A stretch of 64,000 nt of DNA from the NCBI RefSeq assembly GCF_030845195.1, contig NZ_CP132543.1:1133501-1197500 (forward strand). The letters are read 5' to 3'. This DNA comes from Sanyastnella coralliicola. GTDB lineage: Bacteria > Bacteroidota > Bacteroidia > Flavobacteriales_D > Sanyastnellaceae. The notes under the pieces were generated by a model. The model was not told the DNA's origin. It ran no database searches and saw only the letters and a list, made by a program, of their open reading frames with translations. Below are positions 20,324 to 25,759 of this stretch, piece by piece. The translations under genes were made by a program, and so were the position numbers. The first letter of the stretch is position 1; each line of letters starts with the position of its first letter.

Positions 20324-20331
20324 TATGTTTG
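20324..20331 (+). promoter_or_regulatory. Possible -7 box TATGTTTG
   Basis: It matches the Bacteroidota TAnnTTTG -7 consensus. An ATG inside it (20325) opens the downstream frame, but if the box is real that ATG is not transcribed and translation starts at 20352. Confidence 0.35.
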
Positions 20332-20351
20332 TATTCAACTATGTTGTAATC

Positions 20352-20933
20352 ATGATTGAAGGTGCTAGGTATGTTGATCTGATAGCTTTTTTGCATTCGT
20401 CTGAGAAACGCAAGGTCACGATCAGACCGATGTTTGGTTGGCTCCGGATGGTCATCGGCTCGCTGCTGATAATTCTGGCCATTGCTGGGAATTATTCTTT
20501 GGATCCAGAGAAGCAATCATTGACAACGGTCATTGCACTTGTGGTTTTGATCGGCGGGTTCAGCTTTACATGGGTTCGTCAAGTCATTGATAAGTCTTTT
20601 GGAGTAGAGGAACGCGCATGGTGGCTTGGTATCATTCCAGGCAAAACACATCGCTTGAATAAGAGCGATTTTCAGGCCATTTGTCTCCTCAAACAACGAG
20701 CCAACCATGGTTATCAAAGCGTTCGTTTTCAAGTCTCCTCGGCAACCACGAATACTGTCATCGACCACTATCGCATCACCTTATTAGGAGACGGGCATAA
20801 GACCAAAGAAATCCTTCAAGACATTAAGGAAAATCAAGAAGTAGCTGAAGAATTACTGAAAGCTTGGAGTGTAAGTTTCGAACTCCCAATTGAAGCTTAC
20901 AATCCTCCACGAACATCACGAAAGCGACGATAA
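20352..20933 (+). CDS. Membrane protein of unknown function, paralogue of the next gene
   Basis: About 193 residues from the ATG at 20352 (the frame is open from 20325). Two hydrophobic segments form a hairpin (GSLLIILAIAGNYSL region and TTVIALVVLIGGFSFTWV), followed by a cytosolic-type domain of alternating strands (YRITLLGDGHKTKEIL) and a basic end YNPPRTSRKRR. The next gene has the same plan and the same tail (YSPPRVARRRR), so they are a tandem duplication, now strongly diverged. I do not recognise the family; the fold resembles small bacterial two-helix plus PH-like proteins. Confidence 0.6.
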   Translation: MIEGARYVDLIAFLHSSEKRKVTIRPMFGWLRMVIGSLLIILAIAGNYSLDPEKQSLTTVIALVVLIGGFSFTWVRQVIDKSFGVEERAWWLGIIPGKTHRLNKSDFQAICLLKQRANHGYQSVRFQVSSATTNTVIDHYRITLLGDGHKTKEILQDIKENQEVAEELLKAWSVSFELPIEAYNPPRTSRKRR

Positions 20934-20937
20934 AACA

Positions 20938-21516
20938 ATGAAAAATACTACACTAGATCAATTCTTAATTGACGACACTCAAAAGGTTAAGGTATCCGAA
21001 TTACTATGGGGGAAATCTAAGTCTGTTGTGGGAGTCGTGATGTTCGTGATTGTTACGCTCTTGTTTACACTAATTCTGCACTTGGCCATTGTAGTGGTCA
21101 TCTTTCTACTAGTTCTGTGGATAATCGGAGCGTATATGGGCTTTTCACGTCAGGTCTATGAAATAGATATTGAAAATCGGACAGTTCGAGACTATGTGAA
21201 GGTATTCGGACTATATAATTCTAAGGGTGAAGTTATTTACTTTGATGACTACCCATACCTCTCTATGATGAGAGCGAATGTGGTCAGCAGTCGTCAAATT
21301 TCGATGATCTCCGCTGCGGGAGTGGCAGGCAACGACCTAAATTTCACGGAATACCGCGTCACCTTGCTATCCAAAGATCACCGTAGAAAGCACGTCATCG
21401 AACGCATCATCGAAGATCCTGAAAAAGCCAAGAAAAGGGTAGAGGCATGGAGTGAAAAACTGGACTTGCCGGTGGTGACGTATTCGCCTCCGCGGGTTGC
21501 TAGACGTAGGCGATAA
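20938..21516 (+). CDS. Membrane protein of unknown function, paralogue of the preceding gene
   Basis: About 192 residues from the ATG at 20938, four bases after the previous stop, so the pair is one operon. Two adjacent hydrophobic segments (SVVGVVMFVIVTLLFTLIL, IVVVIFLLVLWIIGAYMGF), then a beta-rich domain with YEIDIENRTVRDYVKVFG and EYRVTLLSKDHRRKHVIERI, ending YSPPRVARRRR. The YRVTLL/YRITLL strand and the PPR..R.RR tail align with the upstream gene. Function unknown. Confidence 0.65.
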   Translation: MKNTTLDQFLIDDTQKVKVSELLWGKSKSVVGVVMFVIVTLLFTLILHLAIVVVIFLLVLWIIGAYMGFSRQVYEIDIENRTVRDYVKVFGLYNSKGEVIYFDDYPYLSMMRANVVSSRQISMISAAGVAGNDLNFTEYRVTLLSKDHRRKHVIERIIEDPEKAKKRVEAWSEKLDLPVVTYSPPRVARRRR

Positions 21517-21588: not shown

Positions 21589-22680
21589 TTATCGATTAGA
21601 GACTCTCGACGCTCGACCGCGCAGCAAAGCGTCTGCGATGACCATTGCTGTCATGGCTTCTACGATTGGGACTGCTCGGGGGAGTACGCACGGATCATGT
21701 CTCCCTTTTCCTTTTGCCACTGCTTCTTGTCCTGCGGTGTCTACGGTGCTTTGGTCTTGCATGATGGTGGCTACAGGTTTGAAGGCGATGGAGAGAGAGA
21801 TTTCTTCTCCGTTTGAGATTCCTCCTTGGATGCCGCCGCTGTTGTTGCTGGTTGTTTTTATTTCGCCTTCGGTGGAAGCGAATGAGTCGTTCTGTTCACT
21901 GCCGTAGTCATAGGTGCCTTGGATTCCGCTTCCGAGTTCAACGCCCTTCACTGCGTTGATAGAGAAGAGGGCCTTAGCTAGCTCAGCGTGCAATTTGTCA
22001 AAGACGGGCTCGCCGATTCCAGCCGGCATGCCGCGAACGATGCAACGAATAGATCCTCCTACCGTGTCGCCTTTTTTTCTGGTTTCGTCTATGAGGGAAA
22101 TCATCTGTTCCGCGCTAGCGAGATGAGGACAACGAACAATCGTTTGATCAACATCAGTCTTTGAAACCCCTGAGTGATCATATGCGTTATCGATGGTTAG
22201 ATCCTTTACACGTTCGACCCAAGCGATCACTTCAATGTTTCGAGTCGAAAGGAATGCTTGGGCAACAGCCCCACCTACAACACGAGAAGCCGTTTCACGA
22301 GCACTCGATCTGCCCCCTCCGCGATAGTCGCGATGACCGTACTTCATTTGCCAGGTGTAATCAGCATGAGAAGGACGGTAAACATCTTTGATGTGACTGT
22401 AATCCTTTGAACGTTGGTCTTGGTTGGGAATGATGAAACCTATCGGTGTGCCAAGTGTCTTGCCTTCAAACACCCCGCTCAGAATCTGCACCGTGTCACT
22501 CTCCTTGCGCTGGGTGGTGATTTTGGACTGACCCGGCTTTCGACGATCCAATTCAGCCTGAATCATTTCTGAAGTGAGCTCCAGTCCAGCCGGACATCCA
22601 TCGATCACACCGCCAATGGCGGATCCGTGAGATTCACCGAAAGTGGTGAGTTTGAAAAGGGTTCCTAGGGTATTTGACAT
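21589..22680 (-). CDS. aroC: Chorismate synthase
   Basis: A 363-residue enzyme converting 5-enolpyruvylshikimate 3-phosphate to chorismate with reduced FMN, the last step of the common aromatic pathway. The start [19 protein letters not shown], the central [19 protein letters not shown] and the late [18 protein letters not shown] are the family signatures, and length is standard. It stands alone with no other aro genes nearby. One copy of the 14-bp motif lies at 22108-22121. Confidence 0.97.
22108..22121 (-). repeat. Iterated 14-bp motif TCGCTAGCGCGGAA (copy 6)
   Basis: Exact copy inside aroC, encoding L-A-S-A-E-Q. Confidence 0.8.
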
Positions 22681-22806: not shown

Positions 22807-23238
22807 ATGAGACAATTACTTAGCCTGGCCTTTCTGGCCTTATGCGCCATTGGTGTATCCGCACAACAATGGCAGACAGATTTCGATTCCGCTTCCGCGC
22901 TAGCGAAAAAAGAAGGGAAGAAACTTATCATGGTATTTCAAGGGTCTGATTGGTGTGCACCATGCATGAAGTTAGATCATGAGATTATCTCTCAAGAACA
23001 ATTTGTAACTATCGCTAACGCGGAATTCGTGCTACTCCAAGTAGACTTTCCTCGTCGTAAAAAGAACGCTTTAAGTGCCGAACAAACCGCTCAGAATAAG
23101 CGGTTGGCATCGATGTATAACCCGAATGGAATATTCCCTCTTGTTGTTGTTTTTGATAGCAATGGCAAGAAGCTAGGGGAGTTGGGATATGAGAAAACGA
23201 CGCCCGATCAATACGCCAATAAAATCACTCAACTCTAG
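22807..23238 (+). CDS. Exported thioredoxin-like protein (DUF3570/ApbE operon)
   Basis: About 143 residues from the ATG at 22807, where a clear signal peptide begins (MRQLLSLAFLALCAIGVSAQ); the longer frame from 22690 has no such feature. The mature part is a thioredoxin fold with the active site GSDWCAPCMKLDHEI and the cis-proline region NGIFPLVVVFDSNG. It would act on disulfides or cysteines in the periplasm. It is the first gene of a four-gene operon (3 bases to apbE, then overlapping genes). A likely role is keeping the cysteines of the small DUF4266 lipoprotein reduced (inference). Confidence 0.85.
   Translation: MRQLLSLAFLALCAIGVSAQQWQTDFDSASALAKKEGKKLIMVFQGSDWCAPCMKLDHEIISQEQFVTIANAEFVLLQVDFPRRKKNALSAEQTAQNKRLASMYNPNGIFPLVVVFDSNGKKLGELGYEKTTPDQYANKITQL
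22893..22906 (-). repeat. Iterated 14-bp motif TCGCTAGCGCGGAA (copy 7)
   Basis: Exact copy in the thioredoxin-like gene, antisense to it (the gene encodes S-A-L-A here). Confidence 0.8.
23012..23025 (+). repeat. Iterated 14-bp motif TCGCTAACGCGGAA (copy 8)
   Basis: Exact A variant in the thioredoxin-like gene, encoding I-A-N-A-E-F; second copy within 120 bases. Confidence 0.8.
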
Positions 23239-23241
23239 CCT

Positions 23242-24219
23242 ATGCGAATCTTCCTTGTCACTTTACTTACAGCGTTGAGCTTCCATCTTTCAGCCGAACA
23301 GATATATACAAAGACGACCAAACTCATGGGAAGTCGATTCGATATCACAGTGGTGGCCGAGAGTGCTGAAGACGGCGATGCATTCATTCAATCCGCGATT
23401 GAAGAGATTACAAGAATTGAACAATTGATTTCTTCTTGGGATCCTCATTCATTGACTTCTGAAGTCAACGCTAACGCGGGAATTACTCCGGTTGAAGTAG
23501 ATCAAGAGTTGTTCGATTTGATTAGCCGAAGCAAACAAATTTCGCAACTGACCGATGGAGCCTTTGACATTTCATATGCATCGATGGACCGAATCTGGAA
23601 GTTCGATGGATCGATGTCGATGCTTCCTTCCGAAGATAGAATTGCCGCATCTGTAGCGAAAGTTGGCTTTCAGAACATTCAAATGGACGTCGAAGCGGGC
23701 ACCGTGTTCTTACCCTTAAAAGGGATGAAGATTGGCTTTGGAGGAATAGGAAAGGGGTATGCCGCCGATATGGCAAAACAGCTATTGCGCGACCAAGGAG
23801 CCACGGCTGGAATTATAAATGCCAGCGGGGACATGAACACCTGGGGAACACAACCCGATGGAACGCCTTGGACTGTTGCGATCACCAACCCTATGAACAA
23901 GAATGAGTCTTTCGCCACTCTTCCTATTCAAGATCAAGCGGTAGTTACTTCAGGGAATTATGAGAAGTATGTAGAGATCGAAGGACAACACTACGCGCAT
24001 ATCATCGACCCTCGGACTGGAATGCCTTCTCAGGGCATTGTTTCAGTAACGGTGTTCGGACCGTCGGCAGAACTAGCCGATGCCTTGGCTACTGCCACGT
24101 TTGTCATGGGAATAGAAGTAGGCATCGATCGAATAGAACAACTAAAGGGAATGGAGTGCATCATCGTAGATGACCAAGGAAAGCTGCATGTAAGCTCCGG
24201 AATCAATATCAACAACTAA
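23242..24219 (+). CDS. apbE: FAD:protein FMN transferase (ApbE)
   Basis: A 325-residue exported enzyme (signal peptide MRIFLVTLLTALSFHLSA) that transfers FMN from FAD onto a Thr or Ser of target proteins outside the cytoplasm. Family motifs in order: TKLMGSRFDITV, GAFDISYASMDRIW, GFGGIGKGYAADMA, GIINASGDMNTWG, TSGNYEKY and HIIDPRTGMPSQG. Its stop overlaps the start of the DUF4266 gene (TAATG). The targets are presumably encoded in this operon or elsewhere; no NqrB/C or Rnf gene is in the window. A near match to the 14-bp motif lies at 23469-23479. Confidence 0.95.
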   Translation: MRIFLVTLLTALSFHLSAEQIYTKTTKLMGSRFDITVVAESAEDGDAFIQSAIEEITRIEQLISSWDPHSLTSEVNANAGITPVEVDQELFDLISRSKQISQLTDGAFDISYASMDRIWKFDGSMSMLPSEDRIAASVAKVGFQNIQMDVEAGTVFLPLKGMKIGFGGIGKGYAADMAKQLLRDQGATAGIINASGDMNTWGTQPDGTPWTVAITNPMNKNESFATLPIQDQAVVTSGNYEKYVEIEGQHYAHIIDPRTGMPSQGIVSVTVFGPSAELADALATATFVMGIEVGIDRIEQLKGMECIIVDDQGKLHVSSGININN

Positions 24220-24428
24220 TGAAGAAGATAACCAGCATACTGTTACTCGCACTATTTCTTTCCGGCTGCACTGTGCTAGAAGAATACGAGAAAATGAATC
24301 TGAATGATCCAGATATGGCATTGTCAGATTTGAAATTGGATAAGAACTTAAGCACATTCCATTCTTATAGAGAAGCGGCCTCAGGAGGGAATGGCGGTAA
24401 AACCGGCGGCGGATGCGGATGCAATTAA
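24219..24428 (+). CDS. DUF4266 small lipoprotein with C-terminal Gly/Cys-rich tail
   Basis: A 69-residue protein with a lipoprotein signal (LFLSGC, Cys at residue 16) and a tail GGNGGKTGGGCGCN. The middle LNDPDMALSDLKL ... STFHSYREAASGG fits the DUF4266 family. In other genomes DUF4266 is found beside DUF3570, ApbE and thioredoxin-like genes, as here (recalled, not searched). The conserved GCGCN end suggests that the two terminal cysteines bind something, are modified, or form a redox pair served by the thioredoxin. Function is unproven. Too short to be found by length alone, but coupled at both ends by overlaps. Confidence 0.8.
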   Translation: MKKITSILLLALFLSGCTVLEEYEKMNLNDPDMALSDLKLDKNLSTFHSYREAASGGNGGKTGGGCGCN

Positions 24429-25759
24429 AGCATATAGTCTCCTTCCTATGTTTCGGCATTTTCTTGTTTGCCTCACGATCATCCAATGCTCAAGAAGAGC
24501 CCTCGGATACGGTGAAAGTGTACAAGAAACGTGTCTTGGAATCAACCGAAATCGATATCATCTCTAGCTATTACCAGCAGGATGGTCAAAACGCCGCTGT
24601 GACCGGTGGTATCGGTACGGAATTCCTCACTGATGCGACCATGGGAATTTCGGTCTCTGTCCCTTTAAACGATGACGATGTTCTTACCGTTGACGGTAAC
24701 GTCAGCGCTTATACGTCGGCATCTTCTAGTAATGTAGGTCCATTCGATGGACAAAATGCCGACGCTTTTGTAGCCAGTACAGGAGCATCGCATAGCGATG
24801 TTTGGACCAACGCGAACATAACGTACAGCCATAGCAGTGATGATCGGAATCAGGTAATCAGTGGAACATTCAGTATCTCCAATGAATACGATTACTTCTC
24901 GTTAGGCCTATCTGGTAACTACACCCGCCTGTTTAATAAGAAGAACACAGAGTTGAGCCTGAAAGCGAGTGCTTTCCTTGATCGTTGGAATATTATCATT
25001 CCAATGGAGCTTCGTCCGCCTGGAAACGGAGGAGATGAAGATGATGATGATAATTTCGATATCACGCAGTACACCGTTACTGGAAATACGAATTACGCAC
25101 CTCTATATACTCCTTTAGGTCGATCGAATCGTAATTCTTATGCGGGTGGGTTTGTGTTGTCGCAAGTCTTAGGAAAGCGGACTCAAGCGTCATTGGCTGT
25201 AGACCTGATTATGCAAGACGGATTGTTGTCGACACCGTTCCAACGTGTCTACTTCAGTGATATTGAAGATTCATTTATTCAAGACTTCCATTTGGCTGAA
25301 GATGTAGAACGTTTGCCATCGACCCGTATGAAGTTTGCTTCTGGGGTTCGACTGCACCACTACTTCAGCGAATATGTTGTTGCGAGGAGTTTCTATCGTT
25401 TCTACGTTGATGATTGGGGAATTGTATCGCACACCGCGAGTATTGAGCTTCCTGTAAAGTTGGGCATGAAGTTCACCTTATATCCGTCGTACCGCTTCTA
25501 TCAGCAAACGGAGGCAGATTACTTTAAGGCATACAATCAACACTTGAGCACTGATGAATTCTATACTAGTGATTATGATTTGTCGAACTATACTTCTGAT
25601 CAATTCGGAATTGGATTCGGGTACACAGATCTTCTGGTTCAGAAGCATCTTGGGCCACTGGGCTTAAAGAGTTTGAATGTGAAATATTACTTCTACGAAA
25701 GGAATACAGGACTGCGTGCAGACTTGATCACTTTTGGAGCGAAGTTCGTCATGGAATAG
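24413..25759 (+). CDS. DUF3570 outer-membrane beta-barrel protein
   Basis: A 448-residue exported protein (signal peptide about 1-26) of the DUF3570 family, rich in amphipathic strands, with a late GPLGLKSLNVKYYFYERNTG and a terminal strand ITFGAKFVME. It overlaps the DUF4266 gene by 16 bases (an ATG at 24419 is also possible). At about residues 117-126 the sequence DAFVASTGAS resembles the Asp-x-x-(S/T)GA(S/T) sites used by ApbE, so it might itself carry FMN (inference). Probably the surface part of an extracytoplasmic redox system with the upstream three genes. Confidence 0.8.
   Translation: MRMQLKHIVSFLCFGIFLFASRSSNAQEEPSDTVKVYKKRVLESTEIDIISSYYQQDGQNAAVTGGIGTEFLTDATMGISVSVPLNDDDVLTVDGNVSAYTSASSSNVGPFDGQNADAFVASTGASHSDVWTNANITYSHSSDDRNQVISGTFSISNEYDYFSLGLSGNYTRLFNKKNTELSLKASAFLDRWNIIIPMELRPPGNGGDEDDDDNFDITQYTVTGNTNYAPLYTPLGRSNRNSYAGGFVLSQVLGKRTQASLAVDLIMQDGLLSTPFQRVYFSDIEDSFIQDFHLAEDVERLPSTRMKFASGVRLHHYFSEYVVARSFYRFYVDDWGIVSHTASIELPVKLGMKFTLYPSYRFYQQTEADYFKAYNQHLSTDEFYTSDYDLSNYTSDQFGIGFGYTDLLVQKHLGPLGLKSLNVKYYFYERNTGLRADLITFGAKFVME

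Follow-up and report, generated by a model that had tools for sequence, protein, structure and literature searches.

The window, a 64,000-nucleotide stretch of the Sanyastnella coralliicola genome (positions 1133501-1197500 of a single contig of 4.1 Mb), carries on its plus strand (22807-25759) four adjacent genes for a thioredoxin-like protein, the flavin adenine dinucleotide (FAD):protein flavin mononucleotide (FMN) transferase ApbE, and members of the DUF4266 and DUF3570 families. This operon is a member of the published ApbE-DUF3570-thioredoxin-DUF4266 class without DsbD (PMC8238504, cited throughout from the available part of its text), and on balance it probably works as an ApbE-DUF3570 flavinylation system, in which exported ApbE would place FMN on a DUF3570 barrel and a thiol chain would pass electrons through that FMN to a metal. 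The precedent is the DUF3570 of Chlorobium luteolum, on which the cognate ApbE places flavin at two [S/T]GA[S/T] sites, as tested with site mutants (PMC8238504). The same source describes 285 flavinylation clusters with DsbD, typically accompanied by ApbE, DUF3570, a PF13899 thioredoxin and DUF4266, as well as 316 four-family clusters without DsbD, so that the association of these families in either form was already known, and it proposes that the CXC motif of DUF4266 undergoes redox cycling. The operon differs from the DsbD-type clusters in that the DsbD of S. coralliicola, with its N-terminal, membrane and thioredoxin domains all present, is encoded away from it (DsbD_TM matches in the genome fall only at 3.28 and 1.45 Mb). 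Given the 316 published clusters without DsbD, only the wider class, and not the DsbD-type subset, is therefore claimed here.

The Pfam families PF13899, PF02424, PF14086 and PF12094 lie side by side on the plus strand, all four matches exceeding the curated cut-offs against which Pfam assignments were judged. The first gene (22807-23238, +) encodes a secreted thioredoxin-like protein (PF13899, Thioredoxin_7, E = 3.9e-13) whose CxxC motif (WCAPC) is formed by C50 and C53 (codons 22954-22956 and 22963-22965), and which is a distant match to the profile of the disulfide reductase DsbH, NF043050 (E = 1.3e-26; 93.7 bits, below the cut-off of 190). After a gap of 3 bases follows the gene for secreted ApbE (23242-24219, +; PF02424, E = 2.3e-85), whose closest solved structure by sequence is 7esa, which we take to be FmnB. 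This gene overlaps by 1 base that of the DUF4266 lipoprotein (24219-24428, +; PF14086, E = 2e-18), which has its lipobox cysteine at position 17 and ends in the tail ...GGNGGKTGGGCGCN. The last gene, DUF3570 (24413-25759, +; PF12094, E = 4.1e-35), encodes the modelled 16-strand barrel and predicted ApbE substrate. It overlaps DUF4266 by 16 bases, its start codon falling within the stretch that codes for the conserved CGC tail (24413-24422; C66-G67-C68 at 24414-24422, +) that gives DUF4266 its C-terminal GGGCGCN and thereby its CXC motif. The signal peptides of thioredoxin, ApbE and DUF3570 were read by eye, and DUF4266, which is not among the four target genes of the published paper, matches LPAM_1. 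These open reading frames, spacings, Pfam matches and by-eye signals bear out what a sequence-only reading had described: four exported products, genes separated by three bases or overlapping, and a lipoprotein ending in GGGCGCN.

That reading had proposed an extracytoplasmic flavin/thiol redox system and, having seen no NqrBC/Rnf or FMN-binding protein in the window, left the FMN acceptor to be one of the operon products or a distant protein. The window is indeed free of such genes, and the operon holds no FMN_bind protein of the NqrC/RnfG type. The genome has two ApbE genes and a single FMN_bind gene; the second ApbE and the FMN_bind gene (at 1.37 Mb) belong to an Nqr operon about 0.2 Mb away, outside the window, where nqrABCDEF, named by reading the translations, are followed by their own ApbE (L156:4587-11818; G000 1.365-1.372 Mb). 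The second ApbE, 30% identical to that of the operon, presumably serves Nqr. Because one of the two ApbE enzymes is Nqr-linked and FMN_bind is single, the operon ApbE most likely serves DUF3570, which is thus the most likely FMN acceptor, rather than the lipoprotein or a distant protein. The proposal is thus partly supported: the kind of system had already been set out in the available text of PMC8238504, and of the two places left open for the acceptor the operon is favoured by the C. luteolum precedent and the distant protein is not. The further suggestion that the lipoprotein cysteines are redox-active or modified agrees in its first part with the published CXC proposal, and nothing suggests flavin there: DUF4266 was rejected as a flavinylation target, the stretch nearest to [S/T]GA[S/T] in the tails listed being SGAN or SGGN, with Asn at the end instead of Ser/Thr. 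As a separate observation, the NqrC of the same genome reads TGGT where [S/T]GA[S/T] is expected, possibly another relaxed motif.

Two candidate flavinylation sites are found in DUF3570. An alignment of 81 sequences, from the window and from 80 loci collected outward from DUF3570 (the best 80 of 584 confirmed stretches, hence close relatives), shows predicted site 2, T123-G-A-S126 (24779-24790, +), in the canonical form [ST]GAS in 79 sequences (SGAS 65, TGAS 14) and as SGES in 2, and predicted site 1, T101-S-A-S104 (24713-24724, +), in the altered form [TS]SAS in all 81 (TSAS 75, SSAS 6), with S102, A103, S104, G124 and S126 invariant. At least one canonical site, which was taken as the requirement, is thus present at S126, and the operon shares with the clusters of Meheust et al. 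(2021) the same four adjacent families and the CXC tail of DUF4266; it differs from them in pairing one canonical with one altered site, where the published form has two canonical [S/T]GA[S/T] sites. In a family designated f17, which we guess from two SGAS sites like those of C. luteolum to be Chlorobiaceae, [TS]GAS aligns with site 1 in 28 of 29 sequences, 26 have two canonical motifs and 24 have both within the aligned loop. A further set comprises 40 wide-flank loci from the matches of the phylum survey described below: the 35 listed for other members of the class to which S. coralliicola belongs, plus 5 more. Among the 35, all with ApbE in the stretch, 20 have no [ST]GA[ST] and two [ST]SA[ST] motifs instead, 11 combine one or two canonical motifs with one [ST]SA[ST], 1 shows just one [ST]SA[ST], and in 3 neither type of motif occurs, so ApbE can adjoin a DUF3570 without a recognisable site. 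A review gives the motif as D-x-x-[S/T]-G-A-[S/T] and reports, in its available text, that flavinylation fell to about 50% when Ala took the place of Gly and that loss of the Asp had a minor effect (PMC12052999), from which we infer that [ST]SAS may be modifiable as well.

The structural model of DUF3570, built with AlphaFold2 from the 81-sequence alignment (mean predicted local distance difference test, pLDDT, 89; predicted template-modelling score 0.82), contains 16 counted strands arranged as in outer-membrane barrels, with an even strand number, short turns on one side and ends that would be periplasmic. The top Foldseek matches are porins and transporters of the outer membrane (best E 2e-10), and VIA-align gave Z scores of 22.1 for BamA, 21.0 for the polysaccharide secretin 4y25, 17.9 for CymA and 17.4 for OmpG, at 6-12% identity among the matches listed, which therefore speak for a barrel and not for a family. 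Assignment to a particular barrel family is not claimed, as many unrelated barrels appear among the fold-search results. DUF3570 is probably an outer-membrane protein on this model, and both flavin sites fall in the loop of residues 103-129 between strands 3 and 4 (24719-24799, +). Loops following odd-numbered strands are on average 19 residues long, those at the opposite end of the barrel 6, and, with periplasmic ends as in known outer-membrane barrels, the odd-strand loops, hence the flavin loop, would be extracellular. The loop has pLDDT block means of 62-73; when flavinylated it may lie outside the cell or fold into the lumen, either way. Residues assigned to the lumen, by hydropathy rather than from coordinates, are more conserved than outward-facing ones (0.85 vs 0.65), and near-invariant acidic residues are found chiefly on strands 1-3, 7 and 9, near-invariant basic ones chiefly on strands 8, 10, 11 and 13. 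A thiol on the barrel itself was considered and rejected, there being no conserved Cys and only 3 of the 81 sequences having any Cys after about residue 30. DUF4266 is predicted to be disordered (mean pLDDT 55.5; tail block 37), yet the majority of its last 20 residues do not vary in 24 aligned rows, a combination that we read as a chain that would fold upon a partner.

The association of the families extends well beyond the window. Among 296 surveyed genomes from the phylum, 86 have DUF3570 and 83 have DUF4266, every one of the latter being among the former (Fisher p about 1e-70, kinship ignored), and DUF3570 stands without DUF4266 in three genomes (G213, G225, G276). Independent occurrence in most genomes, which the sequence-only reading had named as the outcome that would undo its proposal, is hence not what the survey found. 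The 40 wide-flank loci contain DUF3570 in 40 cases, ApbE in 39 and thioredoxin in 36. At the 80 DUF3570 loci, DUF4266 was called in 79, every one with the GGGCGCN tail, and seen by eye in the 80th (L108); ApbE is present in 75 and thioredoxin in 72, and 62 have the exact four-gene order, the median gaps being 1, -4 and 11 bases. Thioredoxin and ApbE are fused in a single frame in L107, L148 and L065, and three of the eight thioredoxin-less loci (L091, L111, L149) are at contig ends. The five loci without ApbE are L111, at its contig end, and four of Aquimarina. In three of these four Aquimarina genomes, which were examined, an ApbE 62-64% identical to that of the operon is encoded elsewhere, besides an Nqr-linked one, so in these genomes the apbE has moved out of the operon and been kept. 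Three loci in which thioredoxin was not found (L118, L134, L135) have upstream of ApbE a protein of about 113 residues instead, that of L135 with a signal-like start and no Pfam family. In Maribacter halichondriae (L119:4772-5751) ApbE is read as two overlapping frames, possibly through a frameshift or sequencing error.

The neighbourhoods of the relatives also bring in genes related to metals. A small Rieske gene stands directly before thioredoxin, on the same strand, in 9 of the 40 and 3 of the 80 loci, all 12 above the PF00355 cut-off, and VIT1 occurs in 8 of the 40 and 2 of the 80 stretches, not always upstream or adjacent, all 10 above the PF01988 cut-off. In L044 and L049 the order is cytochrome b561, VIT1, Rieske, thioredoxin, ApbE, DUF4266, DUF3570. 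A CusA/CusB-type resistance-nodulation-division (RND) pump and adaptor precede the operon in the same orientation in 3 of the 40 and 9 of the 80 loci, with a two-component pair in between in L150 and L155, and RND genes lie downstream or on the opposite strand in L036, L055 and L085, among others. Their assignment as heavy-metal pumps was tested for L087 alone, where a pump truncated by the end of the locus reaches 700.2, the CusA/CzcA cut-off being 701.45. Ferritin occurs in 6 of the 80 loci, all Aquimarina. In a control survey of 60 genomes of the class, VIT1 matches were found in 33 (40 listed stretches, some being pieces of one gene), and Rieske matches were commoner, in 43. About 0.6 VIT1 copies per 3.5 Mb or so amount to roughly 0.2% per 12-kb stretch, so that 8 of 40 is far above chance, though loci of the same genus are not independent. 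The available text of PMC8238504 likewise counts VIT1 with DUF3570 in 25 clusters, and its main text has zero occurrences of Rieske, copper, ferritin or efflux. These genes, present in a minority of relatives, hint at a metal redox function; RND pumps and ferritin were rejected as obligate partners, being confined to a minority of loci and ferritin to Aquimarina, and are kept as a hint. Likewise, a Bizionia Rieske gene under an iron-homeostasis regulator (PMC9478572, available text) could not be tied to the operon: its locus tag neighbours a cytochrome c, and no CxxCH was seen among the nearest same-strand upstream genes (at most 3 listed per locus, none for L057). PMC3597751, in its available text, likewise yielded nothing on this point. 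Two side observations concern these neighbours. L152 has a type III glutamine synthetase gene and a gene resembling AIR synthase immediately ahead of its Rieske-thioredoxin-ApbE operon, with same-looking genes, by translation, at that position in L048, L153 and L154, and the VIT1 of L123 (6463-7554) shows a weak likeness to rubrerythrin in its N-terminal part (E 4e-4, below cut-off).

In the mechanism we favour, exported ApbE would take FMN from FAD and esterify Ser104 and/or Ser126, as demonstrated for C. luteolum, most likely in the periplasm, before the barrel protein has folded. DUF3570 would then insert into the outer membrane as a 16-strand barrel, its flavin loop at the extracellular end or folded into the lumen. 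Electrons could pass from DsbD to thioredoxin; DUF4266, as a flexible arm on the periplasmic side of the outer membrane, would take them up at its CXC tail and hand them to FMN. In some relatives the Rieske protein and cytochrome b561 may be another input. Lastly, FMN might reduce a metal, most likely Fe(III), for uptake or homeostasis, a step suggested by the neighbours in relatives and weak for S. coralliicola itself. A more specific form, which we offer tentatively and regard as rather unlikely, makes DUF3570 an outer-membrane flavin conduit, with one or two FMN, placed by ApbE ahead of insertion, in its lumen or at its extracellular opening, and the disordered, strongly conserved DUF4266 chain entering the barrel from the periplasm, its CXC tip delivering electrons from thioredoxin or Rieske/b561. 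It would give Bacteroidota a means of extracellular metal reduction without surface cytochromes and would have the ApbE of this clade accept [S/T]SAS.

A number of observations weigh against the favoured mechanism. Site 1 departs from the published motif and the upstream Asp is replaced at both sites (S98, V120). The Foldseek superpositions are loose, with template-modelling scores by query length of 0.27-0.43 and root-mean-square deviations of 7-19 among the matches listed, and a periplasmic ApbE is compatible with an extracellular site only if modification precedes insertion. Five of the 80 loci lack thioredoxin with no contig end to explain it, and in L176, from the class of S. coralliicola, thioredoxin is the sole partner of DUF3570. 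Ten f17 loci of DUF3570 paralogs were chosen for having no DUF4266 near; six have no ApbE, thioredoxin or DUF4266 in the stretch. The other four have ApbE, three of them also with a DsbD-like protein (side by side as DUF3570-ApbE-DsbD in L166, where Pfam was checked, an arrangement that speaks for the mechanism; by profile match and length in the other two). As for the metal, VIT1 was not found in the S. coralliicola genome, the single Rieske match of which lies away from the operon, and none of the genes next to the operon was recognised as a metal gene, though no whole-window search for such genes was made. Fur boxes, scored by closest agreement with a 19-base consensus, were not enriched over the family upstream of the thioredoxin gene (mean 11.86 over 71 stretches vs 11.57 in first-order Markov resampled sequences); the window stretch matches at 14 of 19 positions, as do 3 others, and at least 14 were reached in 38 of 1420 resampled sequences. 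Finally, no flavin measurement on a member of the Bacteroidia was found in the literature searched.

Some of these points lend themselves to other explanations. S126 might be the only site flavinylated in the clade, with S104 of TSAS in a structural turn, a one-flavin variant that has a real chance of being correct even if we lean away from it: S104 has neither the Gly nor the upstream Asp of the motif in PMC12052999, S126 lacking the Asp alone. Such a variant is hard to square with the invariance of S102-A103-S104 in the 81 sequences, whereas site 2 becomes SGES in two, with the alignment of site 1 to canonical sites in f17, with the 20 of 35 class loci that hold ApbE and no canonical site, and with the tolerance of Gly-to-Ala and Asp changes reported in the available text of that review.

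The location of the flavins could likewise be read otherwise. If they faced the periplasm, or the loop were a plug accessible from it, thioredoxin and DUF4266 would exchange electrons with FMN to keep periplasmic or lipoprotein thiols reduced, in a redox or repair system confined to the periplasm, with the barrel no more than an anchor. The periplasmic ApbE and thioredoxin expected from their signal peptides, the distant resemblance of the latter to DsbH and the low confidence of the modelled loop would all suit this unlikely explanation, but strand parity places the loop on the side of long loops, which is outside in known barrels, and the lumen is conserved. DUF4266 might instead be a copper- or iron-binding CXC lipoprotein in an operon for metal resistance, where FMN would control the oxidation state of the metal alongside efflux of the CusAB type or export by VIT1. 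The RND, VIT1 and ferritin neighbours counted above speak for such a role; most of the 120 loci, however, show none of them in the stretch, VIT1 is missing from the window genome, and a thioredoxin partner favours thiol chemistry, which leaves this a decidedly improbable account.

The favoured flavinylation system has likenesses to several known ones. Nqr (NqrB/NqrC) also depends on ApbE for FMN on extracytoplasmic proteins and is present in the same genome, but it is an inner-membrane sodium pump whose ApbE is divergent. Porin-cytochrome conduits of the MtrCAB type similarly combine a barrel with redox cofactors that move electrons across the outer membrane, using haem where the system proposed here would have covalent FMN and a thiol arm. 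The Listeria FmnB surface flavoprotein system shares an ApbE-type enzyme and a flavin outside the membrane, in a Gram-positive organism and with another substrate fold. In the literature searched, DUF3570 and DUF4266 were each discussed only in PMC8238504, which was also the sole paper returned for ApbE, flavinylation, outer membrane and thioredoxin; a later structural paper (PMC11334425) covers FMN-bind, NqrB/RnfD, DUF2271, Flavodoxin_4 and FMN reductase in its available text, and the word DUF3570 is absent from it. What is added here to the published kind is the predicted placement of the flavin sites on a barrel, the altered motif, an apbE that has changed place yet been kept, and the Rieske/b561 neighbours. 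The barrel model, with both flavin sites in a single outer loop, the disordered, conserved CXC arm and the iron-gene neighbours of some relatives lead us to propose a haem-free electron route across the outer membrane. The [S/T]SAS sites, if modified, would broaden the ApbE recognition motif used for finding substrates.

Around the operon, two overlapping membrane-protein genes of similar appearance, neither matched by a Pfam family at E 0.01, lie at 20325-21516 of the window. Downstream, from 25797, comes a gene in which Pfam recognises a methyltransferase domain. The divergent gene upstream (21589-22680, minus strand) is chorismate synthase (aroC) by its translation, and a chorismate synthase gene, also by reading, adjoins the DUF3570 pair of L176 (3794-4909), possibly by chance.

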